NCBI RefSeq assembly: GCF_036322705.1
Contig: NZ_AP027270.1
Location: 1,241,501 to 1,305,500, forward strand
Reading direction: 5' to 3'
DNA from: Maricaulis maris
GTDB lineage: Bacteria > Pseudomonadota > Alphaproteobacteria > Caulobacterales > Maricaulaceae
Length of the DNA stretch: 64,000 nt
Shown here: in pieces, positions 911 through 62,964 of the stretch
Layout of the letters: each line of letters opens with the position of its first letter
How positions within the stretch are numbered: the stretch's first letter is position 1
Position numbers and translations under genes: made by a program
The notes under the pieces: model-generated
Databases searched by the model: none
Seen by the model: the letters and a program-made list of their open reading frames with translations, nothing else
Told to the model about the DNA's origin: nothing

Positions 911-2375
911 AACGCGTTTCCAGATCCGTAAATTTCGTCCGAGCGCCGTCGAACGCCATCTTTGCCGTCCCGATCGCACCGTGACGCTGCTTGCCGATGA
1001 TCACTTCGGCGAGCTTCTCGATGCGACGGAACTCTTCCTCCCAGGCGAGGTATTCCGGTGTGTCCTCGCGCGGTTTCTCGCGTTCCTTGTAATAGGCTTC
1101 ACGATAGACGAAGAGGACGACGTCGGCATCCTGCTCGATCGAGCCCGATTCCCGAAGGTCGGAGAGCTGCGGCTTCTTGTCCTCGCGGTTTTCCACCTGG
1201 CGCGAGAGCTGGGACAGGGCGATCACCGGTACCGACAATTCCTTGGCCAGGGCCTTGAGGTTCTGGGTGACCTCGGAGACCTCTTCCACGCGGCTTCCCC
1301 CCGAGCGGTTTTTCGAAGAGGTCACCAGCTGCAGATAGTCGACCACGATCAGATCAAGGCCATGCGTGCGCTTGAGACGGCGGGCGCGGGCGGCGAGGGC
1401 GGAGATAGGCAGGCCACCCGTGTCGTCGATATAGAGCGGCAGGCCCTGGATCTCGAGGCAGGCGTCGCGGATCTCCTCGTACTGGGTCGCGTCGATCGTG
1501 CCCTGGCGGATCATGTAGCCGGGAATGCCGGTGTAATCGGCGATCAGGCGGGTGGCGAGCTGTTCGGCTGACATTTCGAGCGAGTAGAAACCGACAACGC
1601 CGCCATTGATCGTCTTCTTGGTCCCGTCAGGCTGAATCTCGAACTGGTAGTTTCGCGCCACATCGAAGGCGATATTGGTGGCGAGCGCGGTTTTGCCCAT
1701 CGACGGGCGTCCGGCGAGGATGATCAGGTCAGACGGGTGCATGCCGCCCAGCTTTTCGTCGAGTGACTTGAGGCCCGAGGAAATACCCGACAGGCCGCCA
1801 TCGCGTTCATAGGCGGCCGCCGCGGTCTCGACGGATTCTGCGAGCGCCTGCTTGAAGGAGACAAAGCCGCGAGAGGCCGAGCCTTCTTCTGCCAGGTTGT
1901 AGAGCTGCTGCTCGATTTCCTGGATCAGCTCGCGCGCCTGAACCTCGACATCGGCGCTGGCGGCATTGGCGAGATCATTGCCGATCCGGATCAGCTCCCG
2001 GCGCAGCGCCAGTTCATAGATGATGCGGGCGTATTCAACCGCTGCATTCCCGGTCGCGGCGCCTTCCATGAGGACGGCGAGATAGGTGGTGCCGCCGATA
2101 TCCTTCAGGCCGTCATCGCGGTCGAAAACCGTCTTCAGGACAACGGCATCGGCCAGCGAACCGCGGCCGATCAGATCGGTCGCGCTTTCAAAGATGCGGC
2201 CATGGACCGGATCATAGAAGTGCTCGGCCTTGAGCCAGTCGGCGACCCGGTGGAACATCTCGTTGTCATAGAGAAGCGCGCCCAGGAAGGCCTGTTCGGC
2301 ATCAAGATTGTGCGGTGCCGAATCGAGCGTCTCGGTCTGGCGGTCATCTTCGTAAGGCAGGAGAGCAGTGGTCAT
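891..2375 (-). CDS. dnaB: Replicative DNA helicase DnaB
   Basis: Hexameric 5'-3' helicase of the replication fork, 494 residues, typical for the family. The N-terminal domain (about 20-125, beginning PHNLDAEQAFLGALL) is followed by the RecA-like helicase domain with Walker A GRPSMGKT at about residue 220, the LIVVDYLQL Walker B segment and the SQLSRQVE arginine-finger region. The open frame extends to 2495, but the upstream 40 codons look non-coding, so I start at the ATG giving MTTALLPYEDD. It lies between the ribosomal operon and alr, all on the same strand; the dnaB-alr pair overlaps. Confidence 0.95.
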   Translation of the reverse strand: MTTALLPYEDDRQTETLDSAPHNLDAEQAFLGALLYDNEMFHRVADWLKAEHFYDPVHGRIFESATDLIGRGSLADAVVLKTVFDRDDGLKDIGGTTYLAVLMEGAATGNAAVEYARIIYELALRRELIRIGNDLANAASADVEVQARELIQEIEQQLYNLAEEGSASRGFVSFKQALAESVETAAAAYERDGGLSGISSGLKSLDEKLGGMHPSDLIILAGRPSMGKTALATNIAFDVARNYQFEIQPDGTKKTINGGVVGFYSLEMSAEQLATRLIADYTGIPGYMIRQGTIDATQYEEIRDACLEIQGLPLYIDDTGGLPISALAARARRLKRTHGLDLIVVDYLQLVTSSKNRSGGSRVEEVSEVTQNLKALAKELSVPVIALSQLSRQVENREDKKPQLSDLRESGSIEQDADVVLFVYREAYYKEREKPREDTPEYLAWEEEFRRIEKLAEVIIGKQRHGAIGTAKMAFDGARTKFTDLETRFDDTPS

Positions 2376-2498
2376 GCCTTTGGGATACAGAAGGCACGCC
2401 GGGGATACACCCCCCTGAGACGGCCCGGGCCGTGATTGCCCACAGCTCTTTGGGCGGGCTGTGGACAAGTGTGGAAAACGGAGAGGCGGGAGCACAAA

Positions 2499-2529
2499 TG
2501 AAAACGGGCCGGTCTCGCGACCGGCCCGT
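2499..2529 (-). terminator. Rho-independent terminator of the rpsF-rpsR-rplI operon
   Basis: An 11-bp perfect stem (ACGGGCCGGTC / GACCGGCCCGT) with a 4-base loop lies just after the rplI stop. On the minus strand it is followed by TTTTC. It separates the ribosomal operon from dnaB, which therefore needs its own promoter in 2376-2498. Confidence 0.85.
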
Positions 2530-2559
2530 ATCCGTTAAAAGCTGAGAAGTTACCCGTGC

Positions 2560-3195
2560 TTACGCGTCGGTCTCTTCGCTTTCCTCTTCGCCGGCACCGG
2601 CGTCTTCGGCAGCTTCGCGCTGGGCAGCCAGTTCCTGGCCTTCCTCGCTGGCTTCGAAGAGTTCGGCAGCCTGGGCGTCCGCGATGGCGCGATCTTCGTC
2701 AGCCTGGGCTGCGATCACGTCTTCGCCGGCGGCCTGGCGTTCGGCTTCGTCCTGCGAACGTGCGATGTTGATCGTCACGGTCACGGAAACGTCGGCGTGC
2801 AGCTTGATCTTCAGCTCGTGCAGGCCGAGCGTCTTGATCGGCGCGTTGAGGGCGATCTGCGAGCGGACAACCTTGGTGCCGCCTTCAGACACGATCTCGG
2901 CAATGTCACGCGAGGTGACCGAACCATAGAGCTGACCGCTTTCACCGGCCTGACGGATCATGACGAAGCTTTCGCCATCGATCGTCTTGCCAGCTTCAGC
3001 CGCTTCCGCTGCGCGTTCGGCATTGCGCTTCTCGAGGAGCTCACGCTCCACTTCAAAGCGCGCCATGTTGGCTTCGGTTGCACGCAGGGCCTTGCCTTGC
3101 GGCAGAAGGAAGTTGCGGGCAAAGCCGGGGCGCACGGACACGACGTCACCGATGACGCCGAGGTTTTCTACGCGTTCCAAGAGAACCAGTTTCAT
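2560..3195 (-). CDS. rplI: 50S ribosomal protein bL9 with long acidic C-terminal tail
   Basis: Large-subunit protein bound near the L1 stalk. The N-terminal domain opens [19 protein letters not shown] and continues [13 protein letters not shown], the family signature, followed by the long connecting helix and C-terminal domain. The protein is 211 residues, about 60 more than the usual ~150. The extra tail (from about residue 150) is rich in Glu, Asp, Ala and Gln and ends EESEETDA. Third gene of the rpsF-rpsR-rplI operon, 12 bp after rpsR, with a strong terminator behind it. Confidence 0.95.
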
Positions 3196-3207
3196 TGTCA
3201 GTTCTCC

Positions 3208-3462
3208 TTAATCGACCACATAGGGGAGCAGGGCCAGCTGGCGGGCGCGTTTGATCGCACGAGCCAGTTCACGCTGCTTTTTAGCCGAAACCGCGGTGAT
3301 GCGGGACGGAACGATCTTGCCACGCTCGGACATGTAGCGAAGCAGGAGCTTGGGGTCCTTGAAATCGATCGCCGGTGCATTTTCACCGGAGAACGGGCAG
3401 ACCTTGCGGCGACGCATGAACGGACGGCGCGCCGGCAGATTTGAAATATTGCCTGATGACAT
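3208..3462 (-). CDS. rpsR: 30S ribosomal protein bS18
   Basis: Small-subunit platform protein that pairs with bS6. At 84 residues it is the usual length. It shows RRRKVCPF, the [18 protein letters not shown] core and the basic [15 protein letters not shown]-terminus that are diagnostic of bS18. It lies 11 bp downstream of rpsF and 12 bp upstream of rplI, the standard bacterial order rpsF-rpsR-rplI. Confidence 0.96.
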
Positions 3463-55118: not shown

Positions 55119-55436
55119 ATGACCGACACTGTCCAGACCCGCCCGGATGGGCCCACCGATCTCACCGCCCTGAGCCAGGCGCTCCTCGCCTTGCGGGATG
55201 CTGGCGAGGCGGAGCGGTTCCTGCGCGATTTGCTGACGCCGGGTGAGATGAAGACGCTGACCGAACGCTGGCGCGTCGCTGGTCTGCTCAATGAGGGCGG
55301 TCATTCCTATCGCGAGATCTCCGAAATGACCGGCGCCAGCACTACCACGGTGACCCGTGTTGCGCGCTTTCTCAGCCAGGAGCCCTGGCAGGGCTACCGT
55401 ACCATTCTCAACCGTCTCAAGGAGAACGGATCGTGA
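55119..55436 (+). CDS. YerC/YecD-type TrpR-like regulator
   Basis: A 105-residue protein of the TrpR superfamily. The helix-turn-helix runs over LTPGEMKTLTERWRVAGLLNEGGHSYREISEMTGASTTTVTRVARFL. YerC-type proteins are often next to histidine genes. It is the first gene of the his operon; its stop overlaps the hisG GTG. It could bind the perfect palindrome in front of it. Whether it senses histidine is not shown by the sequence. Confidence 0.88.
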   Translation: MTDTVQTRPDGPTDLTALSQALLALRDAGEAERFLRDLLTPGEMKTLTERWRVAGLLNEGGHSYREISEMTGASTTTVTRVARFLSQEPWQGYRTILNRLKENGS

Positions 55437-56317
55437 CAACCCGTTTGCGTATTGCCGTCCAGAGCAAGGGCCGTCTGGCCGAAGGGGGCATGGACCTCCT
55501 CAAGCGTTGTGGCCTTCGTTTCGCCTATGGCCGCGACAAGCTTCACCAGCGTGCCGAGAACATGCCGGTTGATCTGATGCTGGTGCGGGATGACGATATT
55601 CCGAACTTCGTCGGTAGCGGGGCCTGTGACTACGGCATTGTTGGCGAGAATGTTCTGGCCGAGGAGCAGGCGGCCGGTGGTCGCGCACGCGAGCTCGAAG
55701 TCGCGCTGCGTCTCGGCTTTGCGGGCTGCACGCTGAAAATGGCAGCGCCCGAGGATGGCCCGATCCGCAGTGTCGCGGATCTGGCTAGCAAGGCCATCGC
55801 GACCTCTTACCCGGCGCTGACCGCGCAATTCCTGAAGGACCGCGGCATTGAGGCCGAGATCGTCGAGATGCGCGGCTCGGTTGAAGTGGCGCCGCGCCTG
55901 CGCATCGCCGATGCGATCTGTGACCTCGTCTCCTCCGGCGCCACGCTGCAAGCCAATGGCCTGAAGGCGTTCGAGACCGTCCTCAAAAGCGAGGCGGTGC
56001 TGATCCGGCGCAAGGCCGACCGTGATCCCGGCTCCGACGGGATCGCCAATATCCTGATGCGCCGCGCCCAGGGCGTGATCGCTTCCTCGCAAACCAAATA
56101 CATCATGCTCAACGCGCCGACCGACCGGCTCGATGCGATCCGCGCGCTTTTGCCGGGAGCCGACGCCCCGACCATTGCCAAGGTCGCCGGTCGTGATGAC
56201 GTCGTCGCCGTCCATGCGGTTTGTCGGGAACGTGTGTTCTGGGAAACACTTGAAGCTCTGGAAAAGGAAGGCGCGCGCGCCATTCTTGTCCTGCCGATCG
56301 AAAAAATGCTCGCCTGA
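55433..56317 (+). CDS. hisG: ATP phosphoribosyltransferase, long form
   Basis: First committed step of histidine synthesis. The 294-residue enzyme starts at GTG after AAGGAG, overlapping the previous gene. The catalytic region has RIAVQSKGRLAEGGMDLL, VDLMLVRDDDIPNFV and the PRPP loop SGATLQANGL. The extra C-terminal ~75 residues (VVAVHAVCRERVFWETLEALEKEGARAILVLPIEKML) form the ACT-like regulatory domain of the long form, so no HisZ is needed and feedback inhibition by histidine is expected. Confidence 0.94.
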   Translation: MTTRLRIAVQSKGRLAEGGMDLLKRCGLRFAYGRDKLHQRAENMPVDLMLVRDDDIPNFVGSGACDYGIVGENVLAEEQAAGGRARELEVALRLGFAGCTLKMAAPEDGPIRSVADLASKAIATSYPALTAQFLKDRGIEAEIVEMRGSVEVAPRLRIADAICDLVSSGATLQANGLKAFETVLKSEAVLIRRKADRDPGSDGIANILMRRAQGVIASSQTKYIMLNAPTDRLDAIRALLPGADAPTIAKVAGRDDVVAVHAVCRERVFWETLEALEKEGARAILVLPIEKMLA

Positions 56318-56327
56318 GGCCAAAGCC

Positions 56328-58223
56328 ATGCTGGACATTTTCAACTGGACTGATGCGTCACCGGACGTGCGGGCAAGCGCGCTCGCGCGTCCGTCGACCT
56401 CGGGCACCGCCGACGCCGCAGCCCGCGACATTGTTGATGCCATCCGCGACCAGGGCGAGGCGGCCGTGCGGGCCTACGCCCAGCGTCTCGACGGCTATGC
56501 GCCCGCCGATTTCCGGGTGCCGGCTGCGACCATCGCCGCGGCCCGCGCCGCGCTTGATCCGGTCGACGCGGAAGCGATCAAGGCCGCTGCGGACGCTGTG
56601 CGCCGCTTTCACATTCAGCAAGGCTATCGCAATTACGCGGTTGAGACCTGGCCGGGCGTAACCGCCTCGCGGCGGGCAACGCCGGTGGACACGGCGGCGC
56701 TTTATGTTCCGGCCGGATCGGCTCCGCTGGTCTCGTCCCTGATCATGCTCGCCGTTCCCGCCCAGTTGGCCGGCGTGCCCCGGATCGTCGTGGTCGCGCC
56801 GCCGAGCGGGGCCGGCGGCGTCAACCCGGCGCTGCTCGCTGCAGCGGATCTGCTCGGTCTCGATGAGGTCTATGCAATCGGCGGCGCCCAGGCCGTGGCG
56901 GCGCTCTCGATCGGCGCGGCGGGGCTGCCCAAGGCCGACAAGATCTTTGGACCGGGCAATGCCTATGTTGCGGCGGCCAAGGCCTATGTCAGCAGTCTGC
57001 CGGGTGGTCCTGCAGTCGACCTGCCGGCCGGGCCGAGCGAAGTCATGGTGATCGCCGACGGCGAGGCCGACCCTGACCTCGTGGCCAGCGATCTGTTGAG
57101 CCAGGCGGAGCACGACCCGTCGGCCCAGGTCATGCTGGTCTGTTTCGATATTGCCACTGCCGAGCGTGTCACCGCGTCGGTCGAGCGGCTGCTGGCGGAC
57201 CTGTTGCGTGCCGACATCGCTCGCAAGGCCCTGGCGGCGTCGCGGATCCTGGTCTGCGGCTCGGTCGATGAGGCCATCGACATTGCCAATACGTACGCCG
57301 CCGAGCACCTGATCCTGCAGGCCGAGGCGGCCGATCGGCTGCTGGCAGGCGTGCGTCACGCCGGCTCGATCTTCGTCGGGGCCTGGACCCCGGAAGCCGC
57401 CGGGGATTACGCCGCGGGTCCCAACCACACCCTGCCAACCGCCGGGGCTGCGAAAGCCTATGGCGGCGTCGCGGTAGAGAGTTTCCAGAAGACAACCACC
57501 ATCCTGCGCGCCAGCCAGCAAGGCGCGGCTGCGATCGCACCGACGGTCGAGCGTCTCGCGGCGCTGGAACAGCTCGATGCGCACGCGCTGGCCATGCGTC
57601 TGCGTCGCGAGAAGGCCGAAGCGGCCGAGATCGCCGAGCAGGCCGGTCCGCGCGCAGGCAGCAAGCGTCGCAAGACCAAGGAAACGGACGTCACGGTGAC
57701 GGTCAATCTGGATCGCGACGGGCCGATCCGGATCGCCACGGGTATTGGCTATTTCGATCACATGCTTGACCAGATCGCCGGTCATGGCGGCTTTGCCCTG
57801 GATGTCGCCGTCGAGGGCGATTTGGAGATTGATGGTCACCACACCATCGAGGATGTCTGCCTGACCTTTGGCGAGGCCTTGCGCGACGCCCTCGGCGACA
57901 AGCGCGGCCTCGGCCGTTTCGGTTTCGAGCTGCCCATGGATGAGAGCAGGGCGGCGGTCTGGATCGATTTGTCGGGACGTCCCTTTGTCAAGTTCGAGGG
58001 CAAGATCCCGGGCGAGAGCGTCGGCGACTTCCCGGTCGAGATGACGGCCCACTGTTTCCGCTCGATCGCGGAGAGCCTTGGCGCGGCCATCCACGTCAAG
58101 GTCGAGGGCGAGAATGCCCACCATATGGTCGAGAGCTGCTTCAAGGCCTTCGGCCGGGCGTTGCGTCAGGCCTTGCGTGTCGAGGGCGATGCGATGCCGT
58201 CGACCAAGGGCATGCTGGCATGA
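56328..58223 (+). CDS. hisDB: Fused histidinol dehydrogenase - imidazoleglycerol-phosphate dehydratase
   Basis: One uninterrupted frame of 631 residues holding two his enzymes. Residues ~1-430 are HisD: FGPGNAYVAAAKAYVS, the zinc and catalytic region LSQAEHDPSAQ, EHLILQAEA, GPNHTLPT and VESFQKTTT. A basic ~20-residue linker follows (REKAEAAEIAEQAGPRAGSK). Residues ~448-631 are HisB dehydratase: RRKTKETDVTVTVNLD, FDHML, DGHHTIED and GENAHHMVES, ending normally. The HisB part lacks the phosphatase domain of E. coli HisB. An internal ATG at the linker (MRLRREKA) could also start a separate HisB. The start follows hisG by 10 bp; the stop overlaps hisH. Confidence 0.92.
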   Translation: MLDIFNWTDASPDVRASALARPSTSGTADAAARDIVDAIRDQGEAAVRAYAQRLDGYAPADFRVPAATIAAARAALDPVDAEAIKAAADAVRRFHIQQGYRNYAVETWPGVTASRRATPVDTAALYVPAGSAPLVSSLIMLAVPAQLAGVPRIVVVAPPSGAGGVNPALLAAADLLGLDEVYAIGGAQAVAALSIGAAGLPKADKIFGPGNAYVAAAKAYVSSLPGGPAVDLPAGPSEVMVIADGEADPDLVASDLLSQAEHDPSAQVMLVCFDIATAERVTASVERLLADLLRADIARKALAASRILVCGSVDEAIDIANTYAAEHLILQAEAADRLLAGVRHAGSIFVGAWTPEAAGDYAAGPNHTLPTAGAAKAYGGVAVESFQKTTTILRASQQGAAAIAPTVERLAALEQLDAHALAMRLRREKAEAAEIAEQAGPRAGSKRRKTKETDVTVTVNLDRDGPIRIATGIGYFDHMLDQIAGHGGFALDVAVEGDLEIDGHHTIEDVCLTFGEALRDALGDKRGLGRFGFELPMDESRAAVWIDLSGRPFVKFEGKIPGESVGDFPVEMTAHCFRSIAESLGAAIHVKVEGENAHHMVESCFKAFGRALRQALRVEGDAMPSTKGMLA

Positions 58224-58819
58224 CCATTGCGCTGATTGATACCGGCTGCGCCAACCTGGCCTCGGTCCGGTTTGCGCTGGAACGGGCCGGTCTGGACTAT
58301 CAGGTCGTTACCCGGCCGGATGAGACCGGCGGGTGTGATCGCCTGATCCTGCCCGGGGTCGGCGCCGCCGGTCCCGCCATGGCGCGCCTGCGCAAGCTGG
58401 GCTGGGATGTCGCGTTGAAAGACGAGACGCGGCCCGTGCTGGGTATTTGCCTCGGCATGCAGATGCTGTTCGAGCGCTCGGCCGAGGGCGATGTGGCGTG
58501 TCTCGGTCTGATCCCTGGCCGGATCGAAAAATTGCCGACCCCGACCGATGGTGTCTGGCCCCATATGGGTTGGAACGCACTGGAATTCGGCGATCCTGAA
58601 GACCCGCTCCTGGCCGGTCTGGAAGCGGGCGCCTACGTCTATTTCGTGCACGGGTTTTACGCCCCGCCGGGTCCGGCCACCCGCGCCAGCTCCACCTACG
58701 GAACCGGGATTTCGGCAGTGGTGCGGCATGGCAATATTGCCGGCTGCCAGTTTCACCCGGAACGCTCGGGTGCGACGGGCGCCCGTATTCTGACCAATTT
58801 TGCAAAGGGTTCGGCATGA
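58220..58819 (+). CDS. hisH: Imidazole glycerol phosphate synthase, glutaminase subunit
   Basis: Supplies ammonia to HisF, 199 residues. The glutaminase nucleophile is in LGICLGMQMLFE, the oxyanion region is LILPGVGAAGPAM and the His/Glu pair in FHPERSG. The start overlaps the hisDB stop as ATGA and the end overlaps hisA by 4 bp. Confidence 0.95.
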   Translation: MTIALIDTGCANLASVRFALERAGLDYQVVTRPDETGGCDRLILPGVGAAGPAMARLRKLGWDVALKDETRPVLGICLGMQMLFERSAEGDVACLGLIPGRIEKLPTPTDGVWPHMGWNALEFGDPEDPLLAGLEAGAYVYFVHGFYAPPGPATRASSTYGTGISAVVRHGNIAGCQFHPERSGATGARILTNFAKGSA

Positions 58820-59550
58820 TCCTTTATCCGGCGATTGACCTTCTGGACGGGCGTGTTGTGCGGCTCCACAAGGGCGAGTTTGACGCCGTCACCGATTATG
58901 GTGACGATCCGCGCGCGGTCGCAGAGCAGTTCGGCGAGGCCGGAGCCGTCTGGGTCCATGTCGTTGACCTCAGCGGGGCCCGCGACGGAGCGCGTCGCCA
59001 GGGCGAGATCATCCGCTCGATCTGCGAGACCGGACTGCGCGTGCAGACCGGTGGCGGCGTGCGTAACTCCGAAGACATCGAGGAACTGCTCGCTGCCGGC
59101 GTGGAGCGTGTCATTATCGGCTCGCTCGCCGTAACCGACCCCAAGCGCGTGTCCGGCTGGCTGCAGCATTATGGCGGTGACCACATCACCCTGGCGCTTG
59201 ATGTCCGACAGATTGCCGGTCGCTATCGTCCGGCCCTTAAGGGGTGGACCGACACCAGCGACACAACATTGGAAGACGTCATCGTCAGGTATGAGGGCAA
59301 GGGCCTAGCCCATGCCCTGGTGACCGATATTGGCCGCGATGGTGATCTGTCCGGTCCCAATATCGCGCTCTACAAACGCCTTGCGGCCGACTATCCGTCA
59401 ATCAACTGGCAGGCCTCTGGCGGGGTCTCCTCGCTCGACGACCTGCGCGCGGCCCGCGAAGCCGGCGCGGCGGGCGCGATTACGGGCAAGGCGCTTTATG
59501 AGGGCCGATTCACGATCGGGGAGGCCGTGGCATGCTTGCGCGACGCATAA
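58816..59550 (+). CDS. hisA: Phosphoribosyl-formimino-AICAR-phosphate isomerase
   Basis: Half-barrel-repeat TIM enzyme, 244 residues, opening a ribose ring (ProFAR to PRFAR). The catalytic Asp is in [14 protein letters not shown], the second Asp in [14 protein letters not shown], and phosphate sites are in [12 protein letters not shown] and [11 protein letters not shown]. The 3' end overlaps hisF by 19 bp. Confidence 0.95.
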
Positions 59551-60299
59551 TTCCCTGTCTCGACGTGCGCGACGGCCGGGTGGTCAAGGGCGTCCGCTTC
59601 CGCGATCACGAGGATGTCGGCGATATTGTCGATCTGGCCCGCCGATATGCCCGCGAGGGGGCGGATGAGCTGGTCTTCTACGACATTGCCGCCAGTGCCC
59701 GCGGGCGCACGGTCGAGCCGGAATGGGTCAGCGCCGTGGCGCGCGAGCTCGATATTCCCTTCTGCGTCGCTGGCGGTATCCGGTCGGTCGACGATGCCCG
59801 GGCGCGCCTGTTTGCGGGGGCCGACAAGATCTCGGTCAACACGCCGGCACTGGAGGATCCCGCGATCATCGACCGGCTCGCTGCCGAGTTCGGCAGTCAA
59901 TGTGTTGTCCTTGGCGTCGACAGCCGGATCATCGAAGGCGCCTGGCGGGTCCACCAGTACACCGGTGACCCGGACAAGACGGTGATCGGTCACCGGCGGA
60001 CGCTGGACTGGATTGCCGAGGGTGTCGATCGCGGCGCGGGTGAGGTCGTGCTCAACTGCATGGATCAGGACGGAGTGCGCGACGGCTATGATATCGAGCA
60101 GCTCGAAGCGGCGCGGGCGGTGTGTTCCACACCTTTGATTGCGTCGGGCGGGGCCGGACGGAAAGAGCACTTCAAATCCGTCTTCGAACTTGCCAAGGTC
60201 GATGGTGCGCTGGCCGCCAGCGTGTTTCACAAGGGGGTCATCGAGATCGGGCAATTGAAGTCCTGGCTTGGTGGTGAAGGAATCAGGGTCAGACCATGA
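59532..60299 (+). CDS. hisF: Imidazole glycerol phosphate synthase, cyclase subunit
   Basis: Works with HisH to form IGP and AICAR, 255 residues. The catalytic Asps are in [17 protein letters not shown] and [13 protein letters not shown]; phosphate loops are [14 protein letters not shown] and [13 protein letters not shown]. It starts within the end of hisA and its stop overlaps the first ATG of hisIE by 4 bp. Confidence 0.95.
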
Positions 60300-60922
60300 T
60301 GGATGCAAAAACGCTCGACTGGAAAAAGGGCGATGGCCTGATCCCGGCGATCGTCCAGGATGTGGCGACACGCCAGGTCCTGATGCTGGGCTACATGAAT
60401 GCCGAGGCATTGGCGGCGACACTCGAGACCGGCAAGGTCCACTTCTTCTCGCGCTCCAAGCAGCGCCTGTGGAAGAAGGGCGAGACCTCCGGCAATACGT
60501 TCAAGCTGGTCAATCTGTCGGCGGATTGCGACAGCGATGCGCTGCTGGTCGAGGTCAAACCAAAAGGGGCGGCCTGTCATACCGGGACGGTGAGCTGCTT
60601 TGGCGATGATCCGGGGCCGGGGCTCGGCTTTCTGGCCCATCTGCGCGCGATCATCCGCAAGCGCAAGAAGGACAAGACCAAGGGCTCCTATGTCGGCTCC
60701 CTGATGGCCAAGGCGCCGAAGCGCCCGGCCCAGAAGGTTGGCGAGGAGGGCGTTGAAGTTGCCATGGCAGCGGTGTCCGAGAGCAAGGAAGCGCTGACAG
60801 GGGAGGCCGCCGATCTATTGTTCCACCTGATGGTGCTTCTGGAGTCGCGCGATCTCAGCCTCGAGGATGTGGTCGACGTTCTGCGCAAGCGTCACGCCAT
60901 CCGCGCATCCAAGCCGGTCTGA
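60296..60922 (+). CDS. hisIE: Bifunctional phosphoribosyl-AMP cyclohydrolase / phosphoribosyl-ATP pyrophosphatase
   Basis: Fusion of the second and third steps of histidine synthesis, 208 residues. The N-terminal cyclohydrolase part has [40 protein letters not shown] and zinc-binding Cys residues ([19 protein letters not shown]). The C-terminal pyrophosphatase has [36 protein letters not shown]. Two adjacent ATGs (60296, 60299) are possible starts. The stop overlaps the next start by one base (TGATG). Confidence 0.95.
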
Positions 60923-62964
60923 TGGGGTCTCAGCTGCGCCTGTCTGCCGGCCAGGCCGCGGGGCTTGCCGTTGTCTTGCTTGGTACTCCGGCCTTGGGGG
61001 CCCAGCTCGATAGCGCCGCTGCGGACGTTGTCGTCGTCACTGGCGAGCGTTCGGGCGAAGCGGTCAGCGATACGGTGCTGCCAGTCACCCGGATCGATCA
61101 GGCCGCAATCATCGAGATCGGCGCCCAGCATCCCGCCGAGCTGCTGTCGCGGGCGCCCGGTGTCATGCTCAATCGTGGCAATGGCGCCGAGCATCTAACG
61201 GCGATCCGGTCTCCGGTCCTTGCGGGTGGTGCCGGTGCCGGGTCCTTTCTTTATCTCGAGGACGGCATCCCGCTGCGGGCGGCCGGTTTTGCCAATGTAA
61301 ACGGCCTGTTCGAGAGCTTGTCCAACCTGGCCGGCGGCATCGAAGTCGTTCGGGGGCCGGGATCGGCCCTGCAGGGTTCCAATGCGCTGCATGGCGTCAT
61401 CAACTTTCTGACCCCGGCGCCGGATCAGACCGCGACCCTTGTCGAAGCCGAGCTGGGTTCATTCGGTCGTGCCCGTGGGCAACTGCGTGCAAGTCGCGCC
61501 GGTGAGAGGACGTCAGCGCTCATCGCGATCGCGGGGCAACATGAGGATGGCTGGCGCGCCGAGGCCGGGCTGGACCGTGTCGAGGCGCTGGTCCGGCTTG
61601 ACGGTGAAACGCCCCGGTTTGACTGGCGGGCGACAGCCTCGATGGTCACGCTCAACCAGGAAACGGCCGGCTATGTCGGCGGGTTCGAGGCCTATCGGGA
61701 TCTCGCCTTGGCGCGCTCCAACAATGACCCCGAGGCTTTCCGCGATGCCATGGCCCTGCGCATGGCACTGGCATTGAGCGGGACAACCGGGAGCGGCCGC
61801 AGCTGGCAGGTGACACCTTATCTGCGCGCCAACGAGATGGACTTCCTGATGCACTTTGTGCCGTCCGAGGCACTCGAGGAAAGTAATCATGCCAGCGCGG
61901 GCATCCAGGCCTCCGTCCGGACCCTGACCGATTGGGGCAGCTATACGCTGGGCACCGACCTGGAACGCACCCGGGGCGCGCTGCGCGAGACCCAGAGCCG
62001 GCCGACGATCTTCTCCTTCGTGCAGGGCGATCACTACGACTATTCCGTCCGGTCCGATGTGGCCGCGCTCTACGGCCAGACACGCTGGCAGCTCTTGGAC
62101 AGTTTCCGCCTGCAGGCCGGCTTGCGGCTGGAACATGTGACCTATGACTATGACAATGCGCTCGCCGACAATGCTGTCGGGCGTTTCCTTCGCGTTGCCG
62201 ATCGCGAGGACAGCTATGACCTTGTGCTGCCGCATCTCGGTGCCAGCTGGCAGCTGGACGCCGACAGTGCTGTCATTGCGCGTCTCGCCCGCGGCGCGCG
62301 GGCGCCGCAGACTACAGAGCTTTACCGGCTGCAGCCCGGACAGGTTATCGAGGGCATCGAGCCGGAAACGCTCGACAGTCTGGAAATTGGTTATCGCCGC
62401 GATGCCGGAGGTCCGGTCAGCTATTCGGTGACCGCCTTTGCCATGCAAAAGCGCAATGTCTTCTTCCGCGATGCCGACGGCTTCAACGTCACCGACGGGC
62501 GAACCCGGCATCACGGGGTCGAACTGACGCTGGACTATGCGGTGTCGCCGAAGTTGACCCTCGCAGTCGCGGGCAGCTGGTCCGAGCACAGCTATGACTT
62601 TGATCAGCCGGTGACGACGCCGAGTGAGGTGATCCGCTCCGGCGCGCGCATCGATACCGCGCCGGACTGGCTCTGGAATGCCCGGCTCAACTGGGTGCCG
62701 TCGGACAGCTTCACGGGTTCGCTGGAATGGGTCTATGTCGGCAGCTATTATACCGACGCGGCAAACCTCAACCGATATGACGGACATGATCTCGTCAATC
62801 TGCGCGCTCGCTATCGTATTGCTGACGGGGTTGAAGTCTTCGGCGCGGTGCGCAACCTGCTCGATACACGCTATGCCGAGCGGGCTGATTTCGCCTTCGG
62901 AAATGATCGCTATTTTCCGGGTGAGGAGCGCGGGGTGAGTGTCGGGATACGGGTGCGCCGCTAG
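60922..62964 (+). CDS. TonB-dependent outer-membrane receptor
   Basis: A 680-residue receptor. The signal peptide is short (AAGLAVVLLGTPALGA, cleavage near residue 27). A TonB-box-like VVVVTGERS at about 36-44 precedes the plug domain (about 50-165), with LLSRAPGVMLNRGNG, FLYLEDGIPLRAAG and IEVVRGPGSALQGSNALHGVINF. A 22-strand barrel follows, ending RGVSVGIRVRR. The substrate is not evident. Its start overlaps hisIE, so it is at least partly translated with the his operon, an odd pairing. Confidence 0.9.
   Translation: MGSQLRLSAGQAAGLAVVLLGTPALGAQLDSAAADVVVVTGERSGEAVSDTVLPVTRIDQAAIIEIGAQHPAELLSRAPGVMLNRGNGAEHLTAIRSPVLAGGAGAGSFLYLEDGIPLRAAGFANVNGLFESLSNLAGGIEVVRGPGSALQGSNALHGVINFLTPAPDQTATLVEAELGSFGRARGQLRASRAGERTSALIAIAGQHEDGWRAEAGLDRVEALVRLDGETPRFDWRATASMVTLNQETAGYVGGFEAYRDLALARSNNDPEAFRDAMALRMALALSGTTGSGRSWQVTPYLRANEMDFLMHFVPSEALEESNHASAGIQASVRTLTDWGSYTLGTDLERTRGALRETQSRPTIFSFVQGDHYDYSVRSDVAALYGQTRWQLLDSFRLQAGLRLEHVTYDYDNALADNAVGRFLRVADREDSYDLVLPHLGASWQLDADSAVIARLARGARAPQTTELYRLQPGQVIEGIEPETLDSLEIGYRRDAGGPVSYSVTAFAMQKRNVFFRDADGFNVTDGRTRHHGVELTLDYAVSPKLTLAVAGSWSEHSYDFDQPVTTPSEVIRSGARIDTAPDWLWNARLNWVPSDSFTGSLEWVYVGSYYTDAANLNRYDGHDLVNLRARYRIADGVEVFGAVRNLLDTRYAERADFAFGNDRYFPGEERGVSVGIRVRR

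Follow-up and report, generated by a model that had tools for sequence, protein, structure and literature searches.

Results

The his operon of the window and its fused gene

In the current work, "window" refers to the whole stretch of DNA that was analysed, being 64,000 nucleotides in length and matching the 3.14-Mb single-contig genome at one place only. It contains a his operon with the order hisG, hisD-hisB, hisH, hisA, hisF and hisIE, the genes of which, together with the parts of the fused gene discussed below, are located as follows (window coordinates, all on the + strand):

55433-56317, +: hisG, long form with a GTG start, 10 bp ahead of hisD-hisB (TIGR00070 and TIGR03455 above cut-off)
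56328-58223, +: fused hisD-hisB gene of 631 codons and a stop (open frame; Pfam and NCBIfam matches)
56328-57611, +: HisD half, histidinol dehydrogenase, residues 1-428 (PF00815, TIGR00069)
57594-57596, +: internal ATG, Met423, inside the HisD tail (start-codon scan)
57612-57653, +: junction, residues 429-442, predicted end of the HisD helix followed by a loop of ~5 residues (AlphaFold2 model; comparison of fused junctions)
57654-58220, +: HisB half, imidazoleglycerol-phosphate dehydratase (IGPD), residues 443-631, assigned to an N-terminally fused lineage (PF00475, HisB tree)
58220-58819, +: hisH, 4-bp overlap with the fused gene (TIGR01855 above cut-off)
58816-59550, +: hisA (TIGR00007 above cut-off)
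59532-60299, +: hisF (TIGR00735 above cut-off)
60296-60922, +: hisIE (NF002747 above cut-off)

Translation of window positions 56328-58223 (+) generates 631 residues with zero internal stops, and the initial annotation, which had recognized both HisD and HisB, each complete, in this single frame, is upheld by the domain matches. PF00815 aligns with residues 27-426 (model positions 10-410 of 411, 469.5 bits, cut-off 27) and TIGR00069, the hisD model, scores 472.9 bits on the fused protein against a cut-off of 243.8, so that the HisD domain is complete and above its curated cut-off. The same applies to the IGPD domain, with PF00475 aligning to residues 471-612 (model positions 1-144 of 144, 186.7 bits, cut-off 27) and the HisB model NF002111 scoring 232.7 bits against a cut-off of 231. 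PF00815 and PF00475 are the only Pfam domains found in the fused protein, with no match to the HAD-type histidinol-phosphatase domain of HisNB.

Packing of the his genes with overlaps of 1-19 bp, as described earlier for this operon, holds for five junctions (4, 4, 19, 4 and 1 bp, in order) and not for the one preceding them, since the last base of hisG is 56317 and the first of hisD 56328, without overlap. A TonB-dependent receptor gene (window 60922-62964, +) overlaps the stop codon of hisIE by 1 bp. A hisC scoring above cut-off and a separate IMPase-type HisN (L032; TIGR02067, 294.6 versus 275.15 bits) are located elsewhere in the window genome, and the predicted histidine pathway is therefore complete.

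With E. coli HisD as a guide, we take Q259, H262, D360 and H419, and E326, H327 and H367, to be the zinc and catalytic residues of the HisD half, and all seven are invariant across 20 aligned fused proteins. Invariant in the same alignment are D477, H478 and M479, H504, H505, E508 and D509, and H598, H599 and E602, representing the motifs DHM, HHTxED and HHxxE that presumably constitute the His/Glu metal site of IGPD. The statement that all family motifs are intact is supported for these 20 proteins and does not extend to L091, a further Maricaulis bin outside the alignment, in which Asn replaces D477. Given the roles assumed for these residues, their invariance points to activity of both halves within a single chain.

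The junction and the number of polypeptides

In the AlphaFold2 model, the final HisD helix encompasses residues 417-437 and the first HisB strand residues 443-449, leaving a predicted inter-domain connection of only ~5 residues (438-442). The single-chain model has a mean pLDDT of 81.4 and a pTM of 0.54, with an unreliable relative placement of the domains, and pLDDT falls below 50 at residues 436-439. Considering that the free HisD proteins of relatives terminate ~12-26 residues past a common LDAH motif, much of the basic linker of about 20 residues that had been proposed to join the halves is native HisD tail and native HisB N-terminus.

Two proteins could be made from this gene, either through an internal HisB start or by cleavage of the chain at the junction, the latter coinciding with the low-confidence spot of the model. 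The internal ATG thought to lie near the linker is situated in the HisD tail, at 57594 and 54 codons ahead of the DHM motif of HisB, and a scan of 26 loci for start codons preceding HisB placed an ATG at 54-56 codons in most Maricaulis loci; in a few fused loci, a ribosome-site-like motif is also followed by a GTG at or close to the junction (L010, L013 and L019, at 40, 39 and 48 codons before DHM, respectively). However, the sequence scan found no ribosome-site-like motif ahead of the window ATG, and the position of Met423 is Ile in L008, so that this codon is not kept in all fused relatives. Within the stretch scanned, L008 has a single start codon, an ATG inside HisD that is preceded by a ribosome-site-like motif and lies 75 codons ahead of DHM, and in L015-L017 the interval from 61 to 22 codons ahead of DHM is devoid of ATG, GTG and TTG. 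Because several fused relatives lack a start codon before HisB, one chain is favoured over two; a separate HisB from an internal start is disfavoured, with single loci as possible exceptions, and production of two proteins by either route seems quite improbable.

Distribution of the fusion

The fused frame is present in 19 of 19 Maricaulis genomes, 18 of them at full or nearly full length and one (G580) truncated where its contig ends; M. maris DSM 4734 is 89% identical to the window over its best segment. A second occurrence was found in a genus of the Hyphomonadaceae that includes "Hyphomonadaceae bacterium ACE_PRO17" (L099), where the whole fused frame occurs in 10 of 30 genomes and three more (G936, G934 and G937) have pieces across the junction, interrupted by contig ends or frameshifts, the other 17 comprising ten with hisD and HisB in separate frames, two with HisD only, one of the free type and four without a match. 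HisD and HisB matches are separate in most relatives in an order-level sample of 200 genomes, and in a phylum-wide sample of 398 genomes, in which a fusion would be expected near the top of the ranked matches, no one-frame HisD and HisB other than that of the window itself was found among the matches listed. In one case (L184, genome G606) hisD (2083-3396, -) and a free-type hisB with a GTG start (1486-2082, -) are abutting and unfused, with no base between stop and start codon.

A sequencing or assembly error masking a stop between the halves, an objection raised by the initial annotation, is contradicted by this conservation, given that the frame is open in all 19 Maricaulis genomes, which excludes a base-calling error, and in 10 of 30 genomes of the second genus, the named fused relatives including both cultured strains and metagenome bins. 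The chance that such an error accounts for the frame is negligible, and the fusion of hisD to hisB is genuine.

A graded series of HisC domains between HisD and HisB

In the relatives examined, hisD and HisB are not adjacent, being separated by a hisC fused to HisB, and four states can be distinguished. In state (a), a full HisC of 351-364 residues is joined to HisB (15 loci of the order; L047, for instance, scores 300.0 bits with TIGR01141 against a cut-off of 276.55), and in state (b) this part is reduced to a partial HisC of 257-297 residues (10 loci; TIGR01141 scores of 99.5 bits in L058 and 71.5 bits in L040). State (c) carries on HisB a "ghost" domain of ~190-230 residues, for which Pfam and NCBIfam scans of L051, L023, L025 and L029 returned no HisC or aminotransferase match, and NCBIfam no HisC match in L022. 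In state (d), HisD is joined to HisB and the intervening domain is absent. The median distance between the HisD and HisB matches falls accordingly from 1094 bp (17 HisC-HisB loci) through 864 bp (10 partial) and 657 bp (24 ghost) to 42 bp (19 fused); for 12 HisNB-type proteobacterial operons, of which L113 only was scanned for HAD, the median is 1604 bp. The suggestion that overlap compaction of the operon led on to the fusion is not supported, considering that relatives have hisC-HisB in between and that this distance decreases stepwise.

The PLP lysine of HisC, which we assigned by motif and take to be catalytic, is retained in 24 of 25 proteobacterial full HisC-HisB proteins and in 3 of 3 from Bacteroidales (27 of 28 together), and in none of the 10 partial HisCs. 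In L062 (genome G099), where a separate HisC lies close by, Ser replaces this lysine in an almost full-length HisC of a HisC-HisB (178.9 bits), perhaps representing an early stage of HisC decay. The ghost domain (e.g. in L023), despite its lack of a match to TIGR01141 or to an aminotransferase Pfam family, is classed as derived from histidinol-phosphate aminotransferase, the confident predicted fold of L023 being aminotransferase-like, and by these features it is a remnant and not an active HisC. Its dN/dS values of 0.05-0.56, obtained from 11 usable pairs of 12 and including several with high dS, indicate that it is under purifying selection in the pairs tested.

A census of HisC in 38 genomes is consistent with a separate hisC having taken over and the fused domain having decayed: 8 of 10 genomes with an intact HisC-HisB are without another HisC above cut-off (G014 and G004 have both), whereas a separate full-length HisC is present in each of the 28 genomes in which the HisC domain is dead or missing, above the cut-off of 276.55 in 26 of them and at 275.6 and 272.1 bits in G094 and G284. 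Replacement by HisD of the HisN part of an adjacent hisNB was considered as the last step and rejected, since what intervenes in the relatives examined is HisC or a remnant of it, without a match to HisN (Pfam scans for HisN in the HisB of such relatives covered L113, L138 and L172); loss of HisN remains as an earlier step.

Number of origins and lineage of HisB

Placement of fused and split hisD/hisB on a tree, a check proposed by the initial annotation, revealed two separate fused groups. The HisD tree and the trees of six His proteins comprised 59 rows selected for spread, of which 7 are without hisA and 8 without hisF; no paired hisD and HisB were obtained for L036, L054, L069 and L071-L073. 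On the HisD tree, the Maricaulis fusions group with Maricaulaceae ghost forms, and the Hyphomonadaceae fusions with partial-HisC forms, mostly of the same genus, and with the ghost form L051. A single clade for all 16 fused rows is rejected by the AU test (p=3e-61 for HisD, p=3e-91 for the six His proteins), so that the fusion arose at least twice, and transfer of the fusion between the two genera is ruled out by the same tests. Each group as one clade is not rejected (p=0.36 for Maricaulis on the HisD tree and p=0.57 for the Hyphomonadaceae). A single clade of all eroded and fused forms is likewise rejected (p=1.4e-8), which implies two or more separate decays of HisC.

A tree of 88 HisB domains separates 13 free alphaproteobacterial HisBs from 75 with N-terminal extensions (SH-aLRT 100), a split that is partly due to selection, as the 13 rows had been picked as free. 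On this tree the Maricaulis HisB half belongs to a partner-carrying lineage that includes HisNB, as opposed to the free alphaproteobacterial HisBs sampled. In an order-level HisB sample of 200 genomes, 193 had a match and the best 150 of these were examined: among the matches listed, 74 of 75 HisBs with at least 53% identity lie in open frames of at least 404 codons, the exception (G169) starting 159 bases into its contig, and 74 of 75 with at most 48% identity lie in frames of 197-318 codons, with one of 406. An open frame alone does not prove a partner, and a partner was identified in 56 of the 75 HisBs of the upper set. A class-level sample yielded one match spanning both parts of HisC-HisB in 8 of 385 genomes.

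HisC-HisB proteins with an intact PLP lysine also occur in Bacteroidales (L121:5227-6879:+, L149:5330-7120:+ and L154:2736-4400:+); on the HisB tree they are found among Bacteroidota HisBs with shorter N-terminal extensions, and are apparently independent of the alphaproteobacterial ones. The HisB of L138 (6350-7378, +) and that of L140 carry a HisN remnant, the profile of which matches HisN (hhalign E=3.9e-11); a Pfam scan of the N-terminal domain of the L138 HisB gave no HAD match, and by this profile comparison it is a dead HisN retained on HisB.

Discussion

Our preferred reading, to which we assign a probability of roughly 85%, is that the locus encodes one bifunctional protein with a very short connection and both halves active, which would have arisen by replacement of the N-terminal partner of HisB. 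Sequence comparison provides the fusion and its conservation, the graded series of intermediates, the separate HisCs and the two independent origins; from these we infer the following order of events. The starting point would be a compact operon hisG-D-C-[NB]-H-A-F-[IE], from which the HisN part was lost, leaving HisC fused to HisB. A separate hisC would then have taken over in two lineages, one comprising Maricaulis and its Maricaulaceae relatives and the other the Hyphomonadaceae genus, allowing the fused HisC domain to lose its catalytic lysine and to shrink to a folded, dead remnant. Finally, a deletion would have removed this remnant together with the stop codon of hisD, with HisD becoming the new N-terminal partner of HisB. 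The larger find is thus a graded series of fusion-partner exchange, the surviving intermediates (active, lysine-less and ghost HisC, and HisD) displaying how one partner is exchanged stepwise for another.

What maintained a partner on HisB throughout can be accounted for in several ways. HisB may have lost its own start at the first fusion, after which deletions of a dead partner would survive only if in frame with the next gene; the partner would then be useless to HisB, and HisD-HisB a by-product of operon compaction. This neutral explanation, which we consider credible though somewhat short of an even chance, agrees with the fusions tracking gene order, each new partner being encoded by the next gene upstream (first N, then C, then D). 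HisD catalyses the last two steps of the pathway (9-10) and IGPD the sixth, and since these steps are non-consecutive, channelling between them has no obvious benefit. However, a partner-free HisB could be produced by an in-frame deletion that leaves a start from the remnant, and none so short was seen in the 74 uncut cases (with a partner identified in 56 of 75); the purifying selection and confident predicted fold of the ghost domain also argue against a useless partner.

Alternatively, the need for an N-terminal partner could be structural and not catalytic, HisB requiring a folded domain outside its 24-subunit shell, such that selection would maintain dead enzymes until they are replaced by an enzyme encoded next to them. 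Examples of such retention would be the HisC remnants in alphaproteobacteria and the HisN remnant in two proteobacterial bins, and we put this forward tentatively, as an idea with perhaps a third of the probability on its side. Plant IGPD is a 24-mer of octahedral symmetry with an N-terminal sheet on the outside, an assembly called conserved in the source (PMC10978614), and HisD is a homodimer (PMC7284861). By analogy, the fused protein would form a HisB shell with HisD outside, on which 24 HisD copies could pair as 12 dimers, and, if the structural explanation is true, the Maricaulis particle would be of ~1.6 MDa with 24 HisD halves, possibly as 12 HisD dimers on 12 two-fold axes. The intermediates make retention of dead domains for assembly directly testable. 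Selection for functional coupling, whereby attachment of HisD to the HisB shell would set the ratio of the two or hold pathway enzymes together, could have driven both fusions, the same pair having been fused twice and retained in all 19 Maricaulis genomes; this is unlikely, since recurrence is equally explained by common gene order and common HisC decay, and since the partners of HisB vary so widely (HisN, HisC, dead HisC, HisD) that no specific enzyme pairing seems favoured. Gene fusions are taken as a sign of proteins working together; here, the partner of HisB changes from an enzyme to a dead enzyme to another enzyme at constant gene order, and the fusion may therefore record operon history and not a preference for one pairing.

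Among known systems, HisNB (E. coli hisB) is similar in that HisB carries an N-terminal enzyme partner within a compact his operon, and its HisB half lies on the same side of the tree as that of Maricaulis, relative to the sampled free alphaproteobacterial HisBs; positions 145-355 of NF003937 align with residues 422-630 of the fused protein at 280.4 bits, below the cut-off of 443. The partner in HisNB is a HAD phosphatase, whereas in Maricaulis it is histidinol dehydrogenase, with a separate IMPase-type HisN. Fungal HIS4 is a multi-enzyme HisI-HisE-HisD chain (PMC1963479) in which HisD is C-terminal and joined to HisIE, in contrast to Maricaulis, where HisD precedes HisB in the chain and HisIE has a gene of its own (60296-60922). 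The heptafunctional his protein of Acanthamoeba contains HisD in a large fusion, as is the case here, but HisB (IGPD) is a separate gene there (PMC6029752).

The his fusions in the published accounts drawn upon here are HisNB, HisIE, HIS7, HIS4 and the Acanthamoeba protein, to which HisHF and HisA/F-HisIE are added for archaea (PMC11237513); in the main text of a systematic survey of fusions, HisIE is the sole histidine example (PMC4921024), and the lists of fused his genes in PMC10138114 and PMC7284861 give seven, hisC not being among them. No HisD-HisB or HisC-HisB fusion was found among the open-access papers listed, and databases or subscription papers may know them; the "hisC-hisB" of PMC6432763 was discarded as it denotes gene order in a Corynebacterium operon. 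With respect to these seven-gene lists, hisC is, on the present sequence comparisons, an addition to the fused his genes. The HisB of Balneolota has an N-terminal domain of unassigned origin which, in its lack of similarity to HisN (PMC8305728), resembles the alphaproteobacterial ghost domain.
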